Positions 11,524-30,876 of a stretch of DNA of 64,000 bases are shown piece after piece (position 1 is the first letter of the stretch; each line of letters opens with the position of its first letter). The DNA is taken from assembly GCF_032814565.1 (NCBI RefSeq), contig NZ_CP136521.1, forward strand, positions 62,001-126,000, given 5' to 3'. Source of the stretch: Hwangdonia lutea. GTDB taxonomy: Bacteria; Bacteroidota; Bacteroidia; Flavobacteriales; Flavobacteriaceae. Made by a program: the position numbers and the translations under genes. Under the pieces are notes generated by a model, which saw only the letters and a list, made by a program, of their open reading frames with translations, was not told the DNA's origin and searched no databases.

Positions 11524-12828
11524 ATGAAAAAAACAATAAACATATTTTGGTTTCGCCGCGATTTAAGGCTGGATGACAACCACGGGTTCTATGAAGCTTT
11601 AAAAGGAAATCACCCCGTACTTCCCATTTTTATTTTCGACCCCGAAATATTAGAGAGCTTACCCAAAACCGATGCCCGCGTTACTTTTATTCACGACACA
11701 CTTCAGGCTTTAAACACCAAACTTAAAAATGAATACGAAAGCGGCATTGCTATGTATCACGGTAAACCGATTGAAATTTTTAAAAACCTTGTTGAAGATT
11801 ACAACATCGAAACGGTTTATACCAATCACGATTACGAACCCTATGCCAAAACTCGTGATACAGCCATAAAAGCCTTTTTAAATGATAATAACATCGATTT
11901 TAAAACCTATAAAGATCAGGTTGTTTTTGAAAAAAACGACGTTGTAAAAAGCGATGGTACACCCTATTTGGTTTACACCCCTTATATGAAACGTTGGAAA
12001 GCAACCTTTACAGATAACGACATAAAAGCTTTTGAGTCAGAAACGTTGTTGGACAATTTAGTTTCAAATGAAACACTACCAAAATTAAGTTTAGCCGATA
12101 TTGGTTTTGAGAAATCAAATCAGCGCATCGAACCCTATCAAGTCAATCCACAATTAATACAAACTTACGAAGACACACGCAACTTCCCCGCGCAAGATAG
12201 CACCTCGCGTTTAGGGCCGCATTTGCGTTTTGGTACGGTAAGCATCCGAAAAATGGTTAAAAAAGCCATAGCCGAAACCAACGAGGTGTTTTGGCAGGAA
12301 TTAATTTGGCGCGAGTTTTTTATGCAAATACTTTGGCATTTTCCGCAAACGCAAACCCAAAGTTTTAAACCCAAATACGACCGCATTGTGTGGCGTAATA
12401 ACGAAGCTGAATTTAAAGCGTGGTGCGCAGGCAAAACAGGTTATCCTTTTGTTGATGCGGGCATGCGGCAATTAAATAAAACAGGATTTATGCACAATCG
12501 CGTTCGTATGTTGGTGGGTAGTTTTTTATGCAAACACTTACTTATTGATTGGCGCTGGGGCGAGGCATATTTTGCCGAAAAACTTCACGACTACGACATG
12601 GCAAGCAATATTGGTAACTGGCAATGGGTTGCGGGCTGCGGTGTTGATGCCGCGCCCTATTTCCGGATTTTTAACCCAACCACCCAAATTAAAAAATTTG
12701 ATAAAAATTTGGAATACATCAAAACCTGGGTGCCCGATTTTCAAGAACTCACTTATCCCAAACCCATTGTAGAGCATAAATTTGCCCGGGAGCGTTGTTT
12801 AAAGGCTTATAAAAGTGCTTTGGATTAA
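11524..12828 (+). CDS. phrB: Deoxyribodipyrimidine photolyase / cryptochrome
   Basis: 434 aa. The N-terminal photolyase domain starts FWFRRDLRLDDNHGFY. The FAD-binding domain contains TSRLGPHLRFGTVSIR, WQELIWREFF, and the photolyase signature WRWGEAYFAEKLHDYDMASN followed by NWQWVAG. It repairs cyclobutane pyrimidine dimers using blue light; a signalling cryptochrome role cannot be excluded from sequence. It closes the stress-gene run. Its last 20 nt (AAAAGTGCTTTGGATTAA and flanks) are repeated 860 bp downstream, after the DUF6090 gene. Confidence 0.9.
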   Translation: MKKTINIFWFRRDLRLDDNHGFYEALKGNHPVLPIFIFDPEILESLPKTDARVTFIHDTLQALNTKLKNEYESGIAMYHGKPIEIFKNLVEDYNIETVYTNHDYEPYAKTRDTAIKAFLNDNNIDFKTYKDQVVFEKNDVVKSDGTPYLVYTPYMKRWKATFTDNDIKAFESETLLDNLVSNETLPKLSLADIGFEKSNQRIEPYQVNPQLIQTYEDTRNFPAQDSTSRLGPHLRFGTVSIRKMVKKAIAETNEVFWQELIWREFFMQILWHFPQTQTQSFKPKYDRIVWRNNEAEFKAWCAGKTGYPFVDAGMRQLNKTGFMHNRVRMLVGSFLCKHLLIDWRWGEAYFAEKLHDYDMASNIGNWQWVAGCGVDAAPYFRIFNPTTQIKKFDKNLEYIKTWVPDFQELTYPKPIVEHKFARERCLKAYKSALD

Positions 12829-12840: not shown

Positions 12841-12871
12841 TTGATTTTCTAAGAAAAAAATGCTAGTTTCG
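12841..12871 (+). promoter_or_regulatory. Cassette-type promoter A (TTG-N20-TAGTTTCG)
   Basis: TTG at 12841-12843, a 20-nt spacer, and TAGTTTCG at 12864-12871. The layout is the same as at 15794-15824 and 25375-25405, including ATTTTCTAAGAAAA-like spacer sequence. It is followed by GAAATATAAATCATTAAAA (from about 12902), which matches the leader hairpin region of the other two units. Confidence 0.65.
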
Positions 12872-12973
12872 TTTACTTGTGCTTAACTTATTTAAGTACA
12901 GGAAATATAAATCATTAAAAACGAATTCGTATTCTTAAAAGCACCTTGCTCTATTTTCAGAAACGGCTAAACA

Positions 12974-13669
12974 ATGATAAAATTCTTTAGAAAAATTAGA
13001 CGAAATTTACTTACTGAAGGTAATACTGGAAAGTATCTAAAATATGCAATCGGTGAAATTGTTCTTGTAGTTATTGGAATTTTAATCGCATTAGGTATAA
13101 ATAACTGGAATGAAAGAAAAAAGGACAGAGATAAGGAAATTGTATACCTAAATCGTTTAACAACCAACTTGAATTCCGACATCAAACTGTATAATTTGAT
13201 CATCAAAAAAGATTCAGCACTTATAGAAAGCTTAAAAAAATTACAGTCTTTTAATTTCAATATAAGCGACAAAGAAAATAAAAGCACTGAAGCTTTAAAC
13301 GCTTTAATTACTGGTTATCATTTTACGCCTAATAAAACAACCATAGATAACATAGTTTCATCTGGAAATATCGAAATTATCAGGAGTAATTATCTTTTAG
13401 AAGATATTTTTCTTTATTATCGGACCACTGAAGATATTCAAAAAGGAATCGACGAAGCAATATCAAATTATAATAGAAGCATATTTGGACCTTGGCTTAT
13501 AAAGTTTGAAGCCAAAAGCACCAATGAGAAACAAAAGAATCAACTGCACAACTCTATAAATTTAAAACTTGATTTATTAAATAATCAAATGGAAATATAC
13601 AATAGCCAAAAAATATTTGCAGCTAGCCTAATAGATAAAATTAGTAATGAGCTTGAAATTAGCAGATGA
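12974..13669 (+). CDS. DUF6090 family membrane protein
   Basis: 231 aa. Residues 1-50 have the DUF6090 pattern: IRRNLLTEGNTGKYLKYAIG, then a single membrane span (EIVLVVIGILIALGINNWNE), then a soluble, mostly helical part. Function unknown. The gene stands alone between two copies of a 21-bp repeat derived from the photolyase 3' end, and has the cassette-type promoter. It is therefore an insertion relative to the photolyase operon. Its stop codon (13667-13669) touches the right repeat. Confidence 0.82.
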   Translation: MIKFFRKIRRNLLTEGNTGKYLKYAIGEIVLVVIGILIALGINNWNERKKDRDKEIVYLNRLTTNLNSDIKLYNLIIKKDSALIESLKKLQSFNFNISDKENKSTEALNALITGYHFTPNKTTIDNIVSSGNIEIIRSNYLLEDIFLYYRTTEDIQKGIDEAISNYNRSIFGPWLIKFEAKSTNEKQKNQLHNSINLKLDLLNNQMEIYNSQKIFAASLIDKISNELEISR

Positions 13670-13689
13670 TAAAAGTGCTTTGGATTAAG
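13669..13689 (+). repeat. 21-bp direct repeat, right copy
   Basis: Identical to 12809-12829. The sequence after it (CTAAAAAATACACC) is probably the original downstream neighbour of the photolyase gene. Confidence 0.9.
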
Positions 13690-13758
13690 CTAAAAAATAC
13701 ACCCTCTGTGAAAAGAACCTCTATAAAACAGAACGGTTATTAGTTTAAGAAACTTAGG

Positions 13759-13858
13759 CTAGCAAACAAGCCCGCGTTAGGGATTGCAGTGAAAATCCTT
13801 TTTGTGAGGCACGAGCAAAAAGATTGCAACGGAAAGCCCGACCCGCAGGGTAACGCCC
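13759..13858. repeat. Intergenic repeat family 1, copy 2
   Basis: This 100-nt element begins CTAGCAAACAAGCCCGCGTTAG and ends GTAACGCCC. Its central part includes ATCCTTTTTGTGAGGCACGA and GCAAAAAGAT, which can pair as a hairpin. It closely matches 26326-26423. Confidence 0.75.
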
Positions 13859-15795: not shown

Positions 15796-15824
15796 GATTT
15801 TCTTATAAAAAAAATTTAACTTCG
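15794..15824 (+). promoter_or_regulatory. Cassette-type promoter B (TTG-N20-TAACTTCG)
   Basis: TTG at 15794-15796, a 20-nt spacer, TAACTTCG at 15817-15824. It matches promoters A and C in spacing and in the TTCG variant of the -7 box. Confidence 0.7.
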
Positions 15825-15884
15825 CTTATCGGTAGATATAAATCATTAAAACCGATTTATATCTTAAAACGTTGTGTGTCATTA
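15823..15884 (+). repeat. Structured 5' end of cassette B
   Basis: Three parts. The outer arm CGCTTATCGGT (15823-15833) is complementary over 11 bp to 18729-18739. A hairpin at 15834-15864 has an 11-bp perfect stem (AGATATAAATC) and loop ATTAAAACC. The inner arm GTTGTGTGTCATTA (15871-15884) pairs in 12 of 14 positions with 18601-18614. Confidence 0.8.
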
Positions 15885-15903
15885 AAAACCAACCAAGAAA
15901 AGA

Positions 15904-18603
15904 ATGAACTACATATTTAACCAAATAGAAAAAAGAATTAATTTTTTAAAATCGGATTCTCAAGATTCGGAATTAAGAGTTTATTACCAATCTAAATTCG
16001 AATTTTCTTTAATCTATGTTTTGGCTTATTTATGGAATAAAAATTGGAGTTCTATAGATATTAATGAAAGAGAATATGTTGTAAACTGTATCCTAAAGCC
16101 ATCCATAGGAACTATCGTTTCAATTATCAGAAAATTAGATATAGAAAATGAATTTTTTGGCAATAAAAAATTAAAGAAGTTATCAAACTTCATAGATAAA
16201 TATCCAAACTTTAGAAATGAAAAAATTGGACACGGTTATTCATTTGATGATGACACCGAAGCATATCTTGAGTTCTTCGAAGAATTCTTTGATGAGTTAG
16301 AAACAAAAAATTTGAACATTATTTTTGATAACTGTGACATTATCAAGGTCACCAAAAAAGAAGAAAATTTATTTAAGGGTATTTCATATAAACCCGATGG
16401 CGTTACTTATTTGGCTTGGTCTTGTCCACAAGAGATATTTGATTTTGAAATTGGAGATATTTATCTCTACACTATAGAGAATAACTATATAAGAATTTCA
16501 CCTTTCATACTTATCGAAAGTGAATCAGAATTTTATTCTTTTTGTTCAATAGAAGAAAAACTAACAGGTCGCACAAAATATAATAGACTATTAAAAACAG
16601 CTCATTTAACGTCTGATGTTTTAGAATTTGAAAGGCTATCATTATCGACTGATAATAGCAAAAGAAAATCTGCTAACGGTACGGTAATTAACCTTTTTGA
16701 AAATAATTTCAAGAAGTATATAGACATAGGCATTACAAAAAATATAATTCAGTTTCTTTCTAAAAATCGTTCTTCAGTATTTGCTACTATATGGGGACAC
16801 GGAGGAGTTGGTAAAACTGCCTCTATTCAGAGAGTATGTGAAATACTTTGTAATCAAGAAAGAAAATTATTTGACTATATAATTTTTCTTTCAGCTAAAG
16901 ACAGATATTACAATTACTATCAAGGTAAAATAAATCCTATAAATGATGGTATATCATCACTAGAAGACATAATATCTACTGTTAATAGTATTATTTTCAA
17001 TAATGCAGATTTTGACATTGAACTTGTAAAAAACTACCAAGGAAAGTTATTAATCATAATTGATGATTTTGAAACTTTTACCAAAAATGAAAAGGACAGA
17101 ATTGTAACTTTCATTAAACAACTTGATATAAATCATCATAAGGTAGTTTTAACAACTCGAGCCGCAACTCTAATCACAGGTGAAGAAATTCAAACAAAGG
17201 AACTTGACGAAAATGAAACTATAATATTTTTAAAGGAAGCTGTATATAATGAAATACCTTCTTACAATACTAAACTATTAGATAAGGAATTAAAAAAAGC
17301 GGAAATTAAAAAGAAAATATTTCAAATAACTTCTGGTCGTCCATTGTTCATTTTACAGCTTGCAATATTCGCTGCCCAAAAAGGTTCTATTCTTGATGCT
17401 CTTAACACAGAAATTAAAACGACAAAAGAGGCTTTAAACTTTCTTTATGATAGAATTTATGATTATCTATCCACTGATGCCAAAAATATGTTTTTGGCTA
17501 TCAGTTTGCTTGTAGATGAAAATGACCTATCAGGCTTAACAAGTAATTTAAAGTTTATCTTGAGTATGGAGGATAAGGAAGATGAATTCCAAAATTCTCT
17601 TAATGAGCTAATAAAACTTAAAATAATTACAGTTCAAGACAAGGATTTTTTCAAAGTATATTCACCTGAAATCTATAAATTAATGAAGCTTTATTACTTA
17701 AATAAAGGTTCTGAATTTGATGGAAATATAACCAATAGATTTAATCTAATTAATACAGATAAAGGCTCTTCAACAGAAACGGCTTTATTAGAAAATGCAG
17801 ATGCTAGTAGACTTATAGAATCTGAAACAGAAATTGAAAATAGATATAGATATATTTTAAACAGGGAAAAAGCACCATATAGTATTAAAAAATTGGCTTT
17901 ATTAAATTTTGCCTCTTATTTAATTACTCATAAAAATAAATTTGATAAAGCTTTAAAGCTATACCAAGATTATTTTCAAATATTTAGAAAAGACTCTGAC
18001 TACAATAGGAATTATGCAACCTGTGCTTGGTCTGAAGGAAGTGATGAGTCAAGATATAAAGCAGTTCAAATTATTCAAGATTATTTTACAACTAAACCAA
18101 AAATAAATCAAGAAACATATTTGGAATTACTGGGAATATTAATGACTTACAAAAGTATACTCGTTGTATCTGAAAGGGATGAATTAAAAAGTAAGTTAAG
18201 ATTTAAAGAGATTACTAAAAGTCAATATGATATTCTTTATCGAGAACAAAGAGAAAGATTTAGAGATATTTTTAAATATCCTGGTGGTCATCTTTATAAG
18301 GTTATTAAAGAGATTGACCTTATGACCCTTTCTGCTAATTGTAGAAATTATGTTTTAGACGGTCTTACACACTTCATTGAAATTTGTATTCGCACAAATA
18401 AAAGAGAAGTTGGAAAGGAAGTGTGTCATAAAGTTATTTCCGAGATGCCTCAAAATTATCAAAATCCATTCATTTATAAACTAAATAAAATTGAATTTAT
18501 AGAAAGTCCAGAAAAATATGATAATGATATTCAAAAGGTTATGCAGAATAAAACAGTTGGAATATTAGGAGAAAAATTAAAAGAAGCTTTAAGTAAAAAA
18601 TAA
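15904..18603 (+). CDS. HEPN-STAND NTPase, probable defence protein
   Basis: 899 aa. The N-terminal ~130 residues are helical and contain R104-N105-x4-H110 followed by Gly, the RNxxxxH motif of HEPN ribonucleases. A STAND/NB-ARC-like ATPase follows: Walker A WGHGGVGKT (297-305), Walker B LLIIIDD (382-388), sensor VVLTTRA (414-420), and SGRP (477-480) as the GxP motif. The C-terminal ~400 residues are helical repeats, a likely sensor. HEPN effector, STAND switch and repeat sensor is the plan of Avs-like and other abortive anti-phage ATPases. The antiviral role is inferred. It is the sole gene of a structured cassette. Confidence 0.75.
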   Translation: MNYIFNQIEKRINFLKSDSQDSELRVYYQSKFEFSLIYVLAYLWNKNWSSIDINEREYVVNCILKPSIGTIVSIIRKLDIENEFFGNKKLKKLSNFIDKYPNFRNEKIGHGYSFDDDTEAYLEFFEEFFDELETKNLNIIFDNCDIIKVTKKEENLFKGISYKPDGVTYLAWSCPQEIFDFEIGDIYLYTIENNYIRISPFILIESESEFYSFCSIEEKLTGRTKYNRLLKTAHLTSDVLEFERLSLSTDNSKRKSANGTVINLFENNFKKYIDIGITKNIIQFLSKNRSSVFATIWGHGGVGKTASIQRVCEILCNQERKLFDYIIFLSAKDRYYNYYQGKINPINDGISSLEDIISTVNSIIFNNADFDIELVKNYQGKLLIIIDDFETFTKNEKDRIVTFIKQLDINHHKVVLTTRAATLITGEEIQTKELDENETIIFLKEAVYNEIPSYNTKLLDKELKKAEIKKKIFQITSGRPLFILQLAIFAAQKGSILDALNTEIKTTKEALNFLYDRIYDYLSTDAKNMFLAISLLVDENDLSGLTSNLKFILSMEDKEDEFQNSLNELIKLKIITVQDKDFFKVYSPEIYKLMKLYYLNKGSEFDGNITNRFNLINTDKGSSTETALLENADASRLIESETEIENRYRYILNREKAPYSIKKLALLNFASYLITHKNKFDKALKLYQDYFQIFRKDSDYNRNYATCAWSEGSDESRYKAVQIIQDYFTTKPKINQETYLELLGILMTYKSILVVSERDELKSKLRFKEITKSQYDILYREQRERFRDIFKYPGGHLYKVIKEIDLMTLSANCRNYVLDGLTHFIEICIRTNKREVGKEVCHKVISEMPQNYQNPFIYKLNKIEFIESPEKYDNDIQKVMQNKTVGILGEKLKEALSKK

Positions 18604-18739
18604 CGCCACACAACAATGGCTAAAAGTAATTGCTTGTTCTCGCCTACTTCTGAAAATCCTCGCGGATTTTCAGTTTGGTGTGTACTTGCAAAGTTAAATG
18701 CTAAACCACGCAACTACTCATAGCCGAGACCGATAAGCG
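18601..18739 (+). repeat. Structured 3' end of cassette B
   Basis: It starts at the stop codon. The inner arm TAACGCCACACAAC (18601-18614) pairs with 15871-15884. TTGCTTGTTCTCGCCTACTT (18630-18649) matches cassette C in 18 of 20 positions. A perfect hairpin CTGAAAATCC-TCGC-GGATTTTCAG spans 18650-18673. After the shared word CACGCAAC, the outer arm ACCGATAAGCG (18729-18739) pairs with 15823-15833. Confidence 0.8.
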
Positions 18740-18860: not shown

Positions 18861-19289
18861 TTACTTATTGTTAATCAATTCAAAAATGTTCTTTTTCAAA
18901 GTTAAAAACACCTCCGACGATTTGTTTTTAGGGTTCGCATTGTCAAAATAGGTTTCTAAAAGCATTCTGCTGTAATTATTCTGTTCGGCAGTGCCCGAAA
19001 AATTGTAAAAGGCCATAGACCAATCGTCCCAAAGCATGTCTTTCGTCGGGGCTTCAATAAGCGTGGTGACATCAAAATGCCTGTTGTCGGCTTTTATGCT
19101 GTCGTACAAATCCAAAATAGCCGCTTTGGCGCCTTCAATAATTTGAATAAACTGATTGTTACTGTAAATAATGCAACCGGTAATGCCCTGCTTTTTATTG
19201 TGCTGTTTTGCTTTTAAGAGCATATAATCGATGTCCTTTTGAGAAAAATGAGATTCAGCAGTCGACCGGTAAATTACAGAATAATACAT
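18861..19289 (-). CDS. BLUF-domain blue-light sensor
   Basis: 142 aa from the ATG at 19289 (MYYSVIYRS). An upstream ATG at 19307 would overlap the AraC gene by 11 nt and add residues outside the domain. The BLUF flavin-switch residues are present: Tyr7, Asn31 (HNKKQGITG) and Gln49 (FIQIIEG), with the DDWSMAF motif near residue 93. The C-terminal tail is short, so it must signal through a partner. The gene lies 7 nt downstream of an AraC regulator and is probably co-transcribed with it. Confidence 0.88.
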   Translation of the reverse strand: MYYSVIYRSTAESHFSQKDIDYMLLKAKQHNKKQGITGCIIYSNNQFIQIIEGAKAAILDLYDSIKADNRHFDVTTLIEAPTKDMLWDDWSMAFYNFSGTAEQNNYSRMLLETYFDNANPKNKSSEVFLTLKKNIFELINNK

Positions 19290-19296
19290 ATGTTGT

Positions 19297-20331
19297 TTAA
19301 CTAGCAATGGCTTTATTTATTAACTGTGGATTGGTAACACATTGAGAGGGCAACACCCCAAAATATCTTTTAAATATCTTGGAAAAATAACTTCGGCTGC
19401 TAAAGCCTACACTGTATACCAATTCTGAAACATTAAAATCGGTTTCGTAAATAAGTTGTGCGGCTTTGTCTAATCGCTTTTCGGTTACATACACATTCAC
19501 ACTTTTATTAAATAGGTATTTAAAGCCTTTTTGCAGCTTATCTGGGGAAAGGCCAGAAATTTTTTGTAGGCGCGCCACGCTTAGGTTTTCGCTTAAATTA
19601 TTAGAAATAAAATTAACGGTGGCCAGGATTTGATCGATTTCAAACTGGCGGATGGGCGCATCTTTATACTTCCCTGTAACGCCTTTATCGTGCCTATCTA
19701 TTTGCGATGCCAGCGTATTAATAATGGCTGCTTCTTTAAACAATATTTCGGACGACGAATCGAAGGAATACTTTAAAACCTCACTGACGAAATTGGACGT
19801 TCGGAAACAAATCCTTCCCGAATAACGGTAATCTTCTTCTTTTAAATAGGTGTCGGATAAAATTCTAAACGCTAATTTACGCAAACCAAAATCATCTTTA
19901 CTTCCTATTTTATTAAAATCGGGTTTATACGAAATCAGGGTCATTTTTATAGGTGTGTGCGCCCCGAATTTAATGGTGCTCGACGATTTTTTATTCCGAC
20001 TTACAATAAAATTTTGCCTGAAATTAATTTGCTCGTAACTATATGCATTGAATTTATGGTATGCCGAACCCTCTAAACAAAAGATAAAATCGATACTTCG
20101 AAGCGGTGCTTTTTTGAAATGCCACTCTAAATCCTGTTTAAGTACAAAATCGAAAATATAAACTGAAATTTCCTTGGAAAGTTTGGTGGCTGTTATTAAG
20201 CCTTCGCCATAAGACGGATTTACATGAGTGCTGCAAAAACCCTCTGCCCTATTTATTTTCTCACCCAAGCACTGTGACAGATGGTTAATATCCTCAAAAC
20301 AGTCAACTCCAGATGATTTTATCGTATTCAT
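19297..20331 (-). CDS. AraC family transcriptional regulator
   Basis: 344 aa. The C-terminal ~100 residues carry the two AraC helix-turn-helix units (LSVARLQKISGLSPDKLQKG, and VSELVYSVGFSSRSYFSKIF followed by KRYFGVLPS). The N-terminal ~220 residues resemble a cupin-like sensing domain (FDFVLKQDLEWHF, IDFIFCLEGSAYHKFN). The linked BLUF gene downstream suggests a light-responsive pair in which the BLUF protein modulates this regulator. That is an inference from context. Target genes are unknown; the photolyase block in the same region is a candidate. Confidence 0.85.
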   Translation of the reverse strand: MNTIKSSGVDCFEDINHLSQCLGEKINRAEGFCSTHVNPSYGEGLITATKLSKEISVYIFDFVLKQDLEWHFKKAPLRSIDFIFCLEGSAYHKFNAYSYEQINFRQNFIVSRNKKSSSTIKFGAHTPIKMTLISYKPDFNKIGSKDDFGLRKLAFRILSDTYLKEEDYRYSGRICFRTSNFVSEVLKYSFDSSSEILFKEAAIINTLASQIDRHDKGVTGKYKDAPIRQFEIDQILATVNFISNNLSENLSVARLQKISGLSPDKLQKGFKYLFNKSVNVYVTEKRLDKAAQLIYETDFNVSELVYSVGFSSRSYFSKIFKRYFGVLPSQCVTNPQLINKAIAS

Positions 20332-25374: not shown

Positions 25375-25405
25375 TTGACTATCTAAGAAAATTCAGCTAA
25401 TTTCG
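25375..25405 (+). promoter_or_regulatory. Cassette-type promoter C (TTG-N20-TAATTTCG)
   Basis: TTG at 25375-25377, a 20-nt spacer, TAATTTCG at 25398-25405; same design as promoters A and B. The outer arm of the cassette begins inside the -7 box. Confidence 0.7.
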
Positions 25406-25457
25406 TTTAACGGCGGATATAAAACATTAAAACGATTTTTATATCAGTTGAGCATTA
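25402..25457 (+). repeat. Structured 5' end of cassette C
   Basis: The outer arm TTCGTTTAACGG (25402-25413) is a perfect 12-bp complement of 26272-26283. A hairpin GATATAAAA / TTTTATATC (25416-25445) has the loop CATTAAAACGAT. The inner arm GTTGAGCATTA (25447-25457) pairs over 10 bp, with one bulged A, with 26142-26151. Confidence 0.8.
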
Positions 25458-25492
25458 GCATTAGCATTAGCATTAGCATTAGCATTAGCATT
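25451..25492 (+). repeat. Microsatellite (AGCATT)x7
   Basis: Seven perfect tandem copies of a hexamer end 8 nt before the ATG at 25500. The unit equals the end of the inner arm, so the array is an expansion of that arm. A change in copy number would alter the promoter-to-start distance but not a reading frame. Confidence 0.95.
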
Positions 25493-25499
25493 AATTTAA

Positions 25500-26144
25500 A
25501 TGAAAGAAATCCTGAAACCAATAATCCGTCCAATTTTCTTTGGATTTTTATTTTACTTGTTCATCCTTTTAGGATATAATGCTGATTTCATTTCTAATGA
25601 CTCAATTCGGACTTGGACTGCAATAATAGCTGGAATTTTATTCATGTATTTAATTGTTTATGCTGCAATTAATAAAAAAGAAAGTTTTGTAATTAACGCT
25701 ATCGGATTTTATATCACGCATATTTTATTTAGTATTGGAATGCCTATATTTCTAATCATTAATCAAGTTTTTTTCACTGACCATAATAAAAGCGAACCAA
25801 AGTCCTTAATAGAAAGAGATAAAATCGAATTTGTTTCTAGTCCAATAGATTGTAATAAAATAAAATATGGGACTTTCCTAAATGGAATTGATACTATTAT
25901 TCGATATTCGGAAAACAACAAAGATTATGAACTAGTTAAAGTTGTTGGATTTGAGGACAAACTCAATCGGATTAAATGGTTAGACAGTTGTTCTTATGTT
26001 AGGGTTATAAATAAAGGTTCAGTTACAAAACATATAAGATTAGGAAATATAAAAGACGGAGAACATCAAATGTATGAGAAACCTGCAATAGCACATAAAA
26101 TGTCGGAGGAAAACATAAAAACATTAACGGAATTAAAAAACTAA
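25500..26144 (+). CDS. Unknown membrane protein, cassette C passenger
   Basis: 214 aa. Three hydrophobic segments occupy about residues 13-33, 39-58 and 66-88. A soluble region of about 110 residues follows (from SEPKSLIERDK), rich in charged residues, with no motif I recognise. The gene is the only one in cassette C. It is preceded by a hexanucleotide array and its stop codon forms the start of the 3' structured end. Base use is more AT-rich than in recQ or fmt on either side, consistent with transfer. Function unknown. Confidence 0.7.
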   Translation: MKEILKPIIRPIFFGFLFYLFILLGYNADFISNDSIRTWTAIIAGILFMYLIVYAAINKKESFVINAIGFYITHILFSIGMPIFLIINQVFFTDHNKSEPKSLIERDKIEFVSSPIDCNKIKYGTFLNGIDTIIRYSENNKDYELVKVVGFEDKLNRIKWLDSCSYVRVINKGSVTKHIRLGNIKDGEHQMYEKPAIAHKMSEENIKTLTELKN

Positions 26145-26283
26145 TGCCAACAAAGCATCCTATAATTTATTGCTAGTTCTAGCCTACTTACGACAATCCC
26201 CGCGGATTTTCTATTAGGATTGTATTTGCTGAATCAGGTGCTTAAAACACGCAACGAAATCATACATAAAACCGTTAAACGAA
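26142..26283 (+). repeat. Structured 3' end of cassette C
   Basis: The inner arm TAATGCCAAC (26142-26151) starts at the stop codon. TTGCTAGTTCTAGCCTACTT (26170-26189) matches cassette B. The hairpin AATCC-CCGC-GGATT is at 26195-26208 and the shared word CACGCAAC follows. The outer arm CCGTTAAACGAA (26272-26283) is a perfect complement of 25402-25413. Confidence 0.8.
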
Positions 26284-26325
26284 CCTCTCCAAAAATAAAA
26301 TATGCTATTAAAAAAAAAACAGAAG

Positions 26326-26423
26326 TTAGCAAATACACGCGTTAGGGATAGCAATGGAAATCCTTTTTGTGAGGCACGAGCAAAAAGATTGTAATGGATA
26401 GCCCGACCCGCAGGGGAACGCCC
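26326..26423. repeat. Intergenic repeat family 1, copy 3
   Basis: This 98-nt element begins TTAGCAAATACACGCGTTAG and ends GGAACGCCC. It includes ATCCTTTTTGTGAGGCACGA and GCAAAAAGAT. It matches 13759-13858 closely and lies 42 nt beyond cassette C, just before fmt. Confidence 0.75.
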
Positions 26424-30177: not shown

Positions 30178-30876
30178 ATGAATACTTTAAAGCAGTTCAT
30201 TATATTTGAACACGGAAATGAACACGATTTGGAACACGATTTGGCACACAAAAAAGATTTTTCTGATCCCAAAATTTATACGGCTAACGATGATTTATCA
30301 AAACGTTGGTATGTGTATTTTTCTTTTAGGAATCCCAAAACGGGAAAGATGACTAGGATGAAAAATATTTATGGTGGTGCAAATAAGTTTAAAACTAAGG
30401 AGGAGCGAATCGCTCTATTATCTCGATATCAAAGGAGGCTACTAAAACTCCTTAAAGAAGGATATAACCCTTACCAAAAAAATACCGCGCTTTTTAAATC
30501 CAAAATGGATAAAAAAAGTAAAAAAGAAGTTATTGAAGTTAAAGAAAAGCCCAAGCTGCCAGAAAAACAATCCACTCAGGAAATCCAAAACAAAGGGTCA
30601 AAAAATAATACTGAAGATTCTAGTTTAAACCTAAAAGAAGCTTTTGATTTTGTTTTAAAATTAAAAGAAAAAACCATTAGCCCAAGGACTTATAAAGATT
30701 ACTGTTATGCTTCAAGTTCCTTTATTAAATGGATTAACAAGAAGCATCCAGAAATCATTAAAATAAATCAAGTAGATAAAAAAGTGGCGATAGAATTTTT
30801 AAACTCCATTTTATTAAATTCAAGCTCGAGAAACCGTAACAACCTCAGACTTATATTAAGTAGTGACCGGTTCTAA
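30178..30876 (+). pseudogene. Truncated tyrosine integrase next to tRNA-Met
   Basis: A 232-aa product corresponding only to the N-terminal part of a Bacteroidota tyrosine recombinase: an arm-binding-like region (KRWYVYFSFRNPKTGKMTRM), a Lys-rich linker, then the SAM-like core-binding domain (LNLKEAFDFVLKLKEKTISP, followed by RTYKDYCYASSSFIKWI). It breaks off after RNRNNLRLILSS. The catalytic domain with the Arg, His and Tyr residues is absent, and I see no continuation in 30877-31117. It is probably the stub of an element once integrated at the tRNA. Confidence 0.75.

Follow-up and report, generated by a model that had tools for sequence, protein, structure and literature searches.

Integron cassettes are recognised by complementarity between a cassette's own ends, by co-oriented recombination sites and by bottom-strand folding of these sites, and the integron crossover takes place at a G^TTRRRY-like core. 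According to PMC9668308, recombination by integrons requires the additional domain of the integrase IntI. Bacteroidota with integrons have been reported (PMC8618304), and the Bacteroidetes/Chlorobi group is named among those with intI (PMC2426708); in the account of IntegronFinder 2, a complete integron in Bacteroidetes proper is named only for Salinibacter ruber, and CALIN are reported from two attC sites (PMC9024848). Cassette insertion outside the array, at attG sites that are divergent and broadly distributed, has also been described (PMC12901181 and PMC12444791, citing Loot et al. 2024). In PMC8565304, integrons appear in the references only. No description of Flavobacteriaceae integrons, of arrays linked to the recombinase called FlInt below, or of dispersed docking sites was found in the open-licence PMC literature.

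The window, i.e., the whole analysed stretch of 64,000 nucleotides, belongs to the genome of Hwangdonia lutea (G000). The interval between recQ and fmt in the window was occupied by an element, here called C, with the following parts.

25375..25405, + strand: promoter-like stretch of the frame, with TTG (25375-25377), a 20-nt gap and TAATTTCG (25398-25405)
25402..25413, + strand: left outer arm TTCGTTTAACGG, R''-like, complementary to 26272-26283, with matched changes in other frames
25416..25445, + strand: frame hairpin GATATAAAA...TTTTTATATC, pairs from RNAalifold
25452..25493, + strand: (GCATTA)7 tandem repeat between frame and gene, read from the sequence
25454..25455, no strand: left junction of frame and cassette, A^TT, placed against the empty orthologous frame of G006
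25455..26274, + strand: insert of cassette C, 820 bp, against 0 bp in the orthologous G006 frame
25500..26144, + strand: passenger gene of cassette C, 214 aa, N-terminal half hydrophobic (by eye)
26141..26274, + strand: attC-type site of cassette C, core the same as in the arrays of relatives
26272..26283, + strand: right outer arm, of which CCG is the cassette end and TTAAACGAA (26275-26283) is frame
26324..26412, + strand: Flavo-1 RNA (RF01705), the frame's neighbour, 54.7 bits against a gathering score of 42

Based on comparison with other genomes, element C was interpreted, with a probability of about 0.87, as one integron-type cassette in a single-slot chromosomal docking site (the frame), within a non-IntI integron system that has dispersed docking sites. 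In the proposed mechanism, a circular cassette would carry one gene (sometimes two or three) and an attC-type site of about 130 nt, the docking site would be laid out like a very short attC, and the two would recombine at (A/G)^TT. As a result, the outer arms would arise from the displacement of the frame's right half-arm beyond the cassette, and the inner arms would be the cassette's own ends. The promoter-like sequence would then read into the passenger, the transcript starting a few nt past TAACTTCG if the frame promoter is active.

As the preliminary description had stated, one gene without known family is flanked by the outer arms, TTCGTTTAACGG at 25402-25413 and its exact 12-bp inverted complement CCGTTAAACGAA at 26272-26283. 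In a first-order Markov simulation of the 926-bp region of C, any 12-bp pair arose in 49 of 1000 runs and a distant pair with at least four G/C in 3 of 1000; the region also has a longer AT-rich inverted pair of 13 bp. The length of the outer arms alone is weak evidence, being moderately unusual, and the case rests on the comparison with other genomes. The arms are regarded as real because they are found again, with changes on one side matched on the other, elsewhere in the genome and in further genera, e.g., TTCGCTTATCGG/CCGATAAGCG in element B of the window and TTCGTTTATCGG/CCGATAAACGAA at L196. Where the fifth arm position is C, the right side has TAAGCG (window B, L170 and L173), and TTAT is accompanied by ATAA (window B, L196, L170 and L173); one arm pair is broken in each of L144, L148 and L151. 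The inner pairing that had been proposed from 25447 (25447-25457) also exists, although its start has to be moved, since 25447 falls within the frame. The pairing is best read as TTAGCATTAG (25455-25464), the start of the cassette, against CTAATGCCAA(C) (26141-26151), with one mismatch; at the latter position the R'' of cassette C, CTAATGCCAAC, overlaps the stop codon of the passenger. The (GCATTA)7 repeat has apparently grown from the cassette's own start TTAGCATTAG, and its copy number could vary from strain to strain. The passenger protein gave no match in Pfam (E 0.001) or in PADLOC (0.01), the best Pfam signal being a sub-threshold Acyl_transf_3 (E 0.0086). Folded as a single strand, the 3' flank of the cassette was no more stable than its shuffles (z -0.38).

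Elements C and B are single cassettes 7.5 kb apart, with one attC-type site each. The 3' flank that the preliminary description had noted in both was recovered by two-sequence alignment, with a mean column identity of 84% over 169 columns. A 27-nt core of this flank, searched with up to three mismatches, was found seven times in this genome and in 29 of 60 genomes including this one; the reversed pattern gave no match in the 60 genomes. In G014, which is one contig, 36 of 37 core matches formed two clusters on one strand, and a looser pattern gave 48 sites on that strand in the fetched stretches, typically about 40 nt past an ORF. CGTT stood at the expected distance past 47 of these 48 core matches, and the 8 nt beginning with its TT pair with the octamer (R'') that immediately precedes the following site. 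Pairing of this start 8-mer with the R'' of the same cassette was perfect in 17 of 45 intervals, among them 14 of the 16 that are shorter than 1.5 kb, compared to 50 of 1980 non-own pairings, both counts being raised by a few cassettes that are near-copies of each other. The long intervals often have more than one ORF and are taken to hold further cassettes whose sites escape the pattern. In array B of G014 (joined, reverse-complemented stretch, ~79250 and ~81380), a repeat GACCCGTCCTGAATAAAGGC... was seen directly past several cassette starts, and is probably an insertion sequence landing in cassettes.

The attC-type sites are about 130 nt long, with the outermost 8-10 nt of each side complementary, and occur in several sequence variants, which the frames of this genome share with the arrays linked to FlInt. 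When three distinct sites were folded in circular form, the outer boxes paired, and the bottom strand was more stable (-24.2 to -28.8 kcal/mol) than the top (-22.8 to -23.3 kcal/mol). Outside the family, 16 places on the 405-kb plasmid pPP2 of Persicobacter psychrovividus (Cytophagales; NZ_AP025294.1, L270) matched the attC of B, the best with 95.3% identity over 127 of 135 bases; in the pPP2 stretch that was read, the annotated genes are mostly hypothetical proteins, all on one strand. Since this plasmid belongs to another order, the cassettes are considered to travel. A plasmid of Flagellimonas marinaquae (NZ_CP092416.1, L271) has a single attC-type site, likewise matching that of B, behind a gene of the dihydrofolate reductase family. 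It lies 2 kb from a XerA-named gene with the annotation 'site-specific tyrosine recombinase/integron integrase', and its surroundings also include a Tn3 transposase and a gene annotated as erm(F). The attC of B had no match in phages. The exact attC core was present on two viral-labelled IMG/VR contigs (L268 and L269).

Array B of G014 opens with a tyrosine recombinase of 390 aa, encoded on the same strand as the cassettes, and FlInt is our own label for the family of this type. By our reading, FlInt matches of at least 170 bits were present in 31 of 36 same-family relatives, G018 having only a 141-bit partial match. By eye, an attI-like G^TT site lies past the FlInt stop codon in 23 of 29 loci and is absent at L070, L080, L083, L084, L086 and L088. 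When 25 FlInt loci were set by hand against the core matches listed, at least 10 had a core match within 25 kb on the same contig; among the matches listed, nine of those 10 loci had their cores downstream on the same strand, the exception being in G029. The G014 recombinase also matched, at less than 60% identity, 65 plasmid records, 50 of them from Acinetobacter and one annotated TnpF.

The best NCBIfam match of the G014 recombinase was the XerA-type family NF040815, whose NCBI product name is 'site-specific tyrosine recombinase/integron integrase'; it differs from that family in scoring slightly under the cut-off (214.1 bits against 220), in an extra N-terminal part of about 95 aa and in its linkage to cassette arrays. 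Against the integron integrase model TIGR02249 it scored 197 bits (cut-off 265). All 16 aligned FlInt proteins matched this model, and the genome matches, among those listed, were split around model positions ~180-238. A weak TIGR02249 match is uninformative, being present in 59 of the 60 genomes and in all 14 control genomes; no genome of the 60 passed the cut-off, and a classical IntI integron was dropped as a candidate. Across the phylum, true IntI over the cut-off was found in 84 of 296 genomes, none of the 84 labelled as the same family; G146, a genome with that label, gave a partial match of 141 bits. The distance from the box-I Arg to HxLRH was 89 aa in all 20 chosen FlInt, 131 aa in the 9 measurable ones among 11 IntI (a twelfth locus gave no protein) and 96 aa in the 9 measurable ones among 12 Xer proteins, and the IntI insert (..RKYPNA..W.WQ+VFP..) visible in the 11 IntI is absent from FlInt. 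Among solved structures, the profile matched XerC-like 4a8e and XerA 5hxy ahead of IntI4 2a3v. In the tree, FlInt fell on one side of a branch with support 87/89, and IntI and Xer were each separated at 100/100, with a long-branch warning. An integron-like recombinase subgroup has been reported whose insertion is 'not fully conserved' (PMC8138268), so FlInt-like proteins may already sit there. We infer that FlInt acts on folded single-stranded attC sites as IntI does, and that the frame promoter is active.

The frame is a palindromic stretch of about 60 nt, in which an inverted pair TTCGTTTAAC...GTTAAACGAA surrounds a short hairpin and promoter-like sequence lies directly upstream. Its left end is common to the solitary cassettes of G000, G006, G017 and G029, e.g., TTGACTTTGTCAGAAAAAAATGATAACTTCG, followed by the arm, the hairpin and (A/G)^TT, and the insertion point in the frames is A or G^TT. 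In the 12 aligned frames, TTG was found in 9 and TAnnTTC in all 12. The frame box TAnnTTCG is one base off the flavobacterial -7 box TAnnTTTG (PMC9723704). RNAalifold gave nine pairs for the hairpin; for five of them, one or more of the 12 sequences have both paired bases changed. The hairpin may also have a role in RNA. The frame model R1, built on these 12 stretches, gave 87 matches in 10 of 60 genomes, this one included (19 in G000, 18 in G006, 16 each in G017 and G029, 7 in G036, 4 in G034, 3 in G019, 2 in G032, and 1 each in G015 and G024). A strict frame pattern was found in 2 of 60 genomes, and at three loci in genome_contigs. R1 had no match in G014, which has the largest arrays, so frame and recombinase are not tightly linked.

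Altogether 64 of the 87 frames were examined (19 of 19 in G000, 14 of 18 in G006, 14 of 16 in G017, 10 of 16 in G029 and 7 elsewhere). Six were empty, five by script (L143, L149, L162, L168 and L058) and one by eye (L146), and a seventh beyond the 64, L112, was found in a public MAG; searching with exact arms had revealed a single empty place, because the arms vary. Of the 58 frames with an insert, 15 lacked a right-arm motif within the sequence covered, 3 had no insertion candidate and 40 were tested for complementarity between the cassette's own ends. The match was perfect in 11 of 40 compared to 57 of 2160 controls, and had 0-1 mismatch in 28 of 40 compared to 819 of 2160. When 0-1 mismatch was combined with a spacing of 120-140 nt, a range picked after seeing the data, the counts were 17 of 40 and 102 of 2160. 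The other 12 of the 40 frames have 2-3 mismatches (18 of 38 in a cruder first scoring), and some of the non-fitting frames are considered decayed or to hold several genes.

A third framed element was observed in the window at 12864-13690, with a left frame TAGTTTCGTTTA... at 12864, an ORF from 12974 and no recognisable attC site. It is bracketed by a 20-bp direct repeat TAAAAGTGCTTTGGATTAAG at 12810 and 13670, the first copy of which is the end of the upstream gene, and Flavo-1 (RF01705) lies shortly 3' of it at 13765-13847. Flavo-1 was also seen about 40-50 nt past the right arm in the C frame and in three G006 frames (L057, L058 and L162); most other frames scanned had none nearby. We know of no function for this RNA motif. 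At L097 (reverse strand, 0-4100) of G029, four frames stand in a row, each with a gene, and every attC-like site except the last is cut short by the upstream sequence of the next frame; the frames therefore seem to duplicate or recombine mutually.

No FlInt was found in this genome, where the best match to the G014 protein was Xer-like at 90.6 bits; the enzyme that filled the frames is therefore not seen here, and the cassettes are either stranded now or are moved from elsewhere. This leaves some room, at distinctly lower odds than the main reading, for cassettes that enter the frames through another enzyme of the host XerC/D type, or for inert relics copied between frames by homologous recombination. 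Such an account would suit a genome with Xer-type recombinases and no FlInt, of which G019, with three frames and likewise no FlInt, is a second case, and it would suit the neighbouring frames of G029 that look duplicated, with attC sites cut by the next frame. Against it, the attC variants in the frames of this genome are those of the FlInt-linked arrays, and the five other genomes with at least four frames (G006, G017, G029, G034 and G036) all have FlInt of at least 170 bits, although so do 31 of 36 same-family relatives. In the window, a short integrase-like ORF with, by eye, only an N-terminal part was seen at 30178-30876, right after a tRNA-Met, and is probably the remnant of another integrated element.

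The comparison of the recQ-fmt locus bears directly on how element C arose. A search for fmt in 40 genomes provided 30 loci, our own included, and recQ lay beside fmt in 26 relatives, with the frame only in G006 (Wocania arenilitoris). The family label of G006 is that of G000, and the Wocania lineage is Flavobacteriaceae. In G006, TTGACTTTCTAAAAAAATTCGGCTACCTTCGTTTAACGGCAGATATAAACAATATTGCAGACAGTTTATATCCGAAAATCA is directly followed by TTAAACGAACCTCTCCAAAAATAAAAATATTC, then by Flavo-1 and fmt, and the window has 820 bp between the two sequences. The empty frame keeps the promoter-like stretch, both arms and the hairpin, and a cassette gain at A^TT is read from this alignment. In 24 of the 25 other relatives, no more than about 215 nt separate the ends of the recQ and fmt protein matches, and there is no frame; in the remaining one, L214, the distance is 1212 nt with a partial recQ match.

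The second position shared between genera is that of element B, which lies between fhs and murA and has the following parts.

15821..15832, + strand: left outer arm TTCGCTTATCGG of the frame of cassette B
15872..18732, + strand: cassette B in the fhs-murA frame, with a STAND/NB-ARC ATPase, ORF 15904-18603
18606..18732, + strand: attC-type site of cassette B, matched best among plasmids by Persicobacter, at 95.3% identity
18730..18742, + strand: right outer arm CCGATAAGCGTAA of the frame of cassette B

The cassette B protein is a STAND ATPase of 899 aa, and the right junction of the cassette reads G^AT. In G017, where fhs and murA were identified from their translated ends, the fhs-murA frame holds a 212-aa ORF, methyltransferase-like by eye, in place of the STAND NTPase, and tblastx between the two inserts gave no similarity. 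The two loci are 79% identical over 1563 nt downstream and 73% over 192 nt across the left side, and two extra genes (18861-20331) between the right arm of B and murA in the window are absent in G017. An exchange of the passenger in this frame is read from the comparison. Other shared neighbourhoods (L143/L157, L168/L166, L196/L161 and L154/L179) have dissimilar or absent inserts and flanks that differ further; in three of these four pairs only the downstream side is common, and one of the three has short weak tblastx matches between the intervals. L143/L157 and L168/L166 are not clean pairs of empty and filled frames because their flanks differ for other reasons.

The preliminary description had held that conservation lies with the frame, in which passengers are exchanged. 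The empty G006 frame and the other gene in G017 bear this out, except that the structured 3' flank had been counted as part of the frame. This flank moves with the passenger as its attC-type site, and is placed outside the frame because it occurs in several sequence variants and by the dozen in arrays without any frame, as in G014 (37 attC pattern matches against no frame-model match). As read from these alignments, the frame comprises only the promoter-like stretch and, with it, the 5' hairpin and the outer arms.

The same comparisons weigh on the view, which we consider very improbable, that frame and passenger form one transposon- or MITE-like element that jumps as a whole and has the outer arms for its terminal inverted repeats. 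The perfect pairing of the arms close to the element ends, frames dispersed at 16-19 per genome in four genera, and the 24 of 25 other relatives in which recQ-fmt has no frame would all agree with such an element. Yet empty frames keep the promoter-like stretch, arms and hairpin intact, so that the moving ends are the inner arms, and one position, fhs-murA, holds two different passengers. Neither ORFs nor domain searches of C and B revealed a transposase gene, and the arms do not enclose the conserved upstream stretch. A transposon is defined by inverted repeats at its moving ends, with target duplication and a transposase, and here the outer arms stay behind in the empty site. Outer arms as transposon terminal repeats were therefore dropped; jumping of the whole element is contradicted for C by the empty G006 frame and could hold only as an account of how empty frames spread. 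It is barely credible that the arms are unrelated to mobility and form a structured leader and 3' end of an mRNA, as a regulatory or self-cleaving RNA, as inner-arm complementarity is cassette-specific, frames occur empty and exchanged, and only Flavo-1 and tRNA reached the Rfam gathering score in the window, even though the promoter-like -7 box adjoins the left arm, inside which a transcript would start, and the hairpin has changes on both sides; a group I/II intron or ribozyme was dropped on the same Rfam result and the cassette-specific arms.

Returning to the integron-type cassette in a docking site, the likeness to integrons comprises co-oriented cassettes, a G^TT crossover of the G^TTRRRY type at which the TT... 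start from CGTT matches R'', attC-type imperfect palindromes with complementary R''/R' outer boxes from the same cassette and bottom-strand folding (three distinct sites folded), an attI-like site beside a tyrosine recombinase, and toxin-antitoxin and defence-like cargo. The attI-like sites and the tandem co-oriented arrays were found in relatives only, whereas this genome has single cassettes (C and B) in dispersed frames and no recombinase. FlInt also differs from an IntI-clade integrase in having no additional domain, in scoring below the TIGR02249 cut-off and in being oriented with its cassettes. The FlInt system works like an integron but falls outside the strict definition, because its integrase lies outside IntI and has no additional domain. 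CALIN resemble the locus in having attC-type sites in a genome without integrase, but consist of at least two attC sites close together, and C and B are single cassettes. The nearest idea for the solitary cassettes is attG insertion, which shares with them a chromosomal position far from an array; compared to attG as described by the citing papers, the frames form a single family, conserved in structure and provided with promoter-like sequence, and two of them occupy positions that different genera have in common.

The cargo of the frames of this genome was also surveyed. L152 holds a HigB-like toxin with an HTH partner, L147 a Gp49-like/HTH pair, L153 a protein with a GmrSD N-terminal domain, L148 a trypsin-like protein and L150 a weakly polyketide-cyclase-like protein, and further frames of this genome hold proteins without family; PADLOC gave no match for the passengers of C and B. 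As far as the sequences tell, this cargo, to which the STAND ATPase of B belongs as well, is in line with a reservoir of defence-like genes.

On a wider scale, we lean slightly towards a second integron lineage in Flavobacteriaceae, with a non-IntI integrase that does without the domain regarded as necessary for attC recombination. In part of the family it would have about 16-19 promoter-bearing, attC-like single-slot sites per chromosome, some of them at loci common to several genera, at which every captured cassette would be expressed. If such a distributed platform is true, it would contrast with one attI followed by one long, mostly silent array. Unlike classical integrons, the frames are fixed promoter-bearing slots, so that one slot can be studied with and without its cassette in different genera. 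Should FlInt prove to be an active integrase, extensive arrays in a major marine family would have been overlooked, and the family would offer a natural test of the need for the IntI domain in single-strand recombination.
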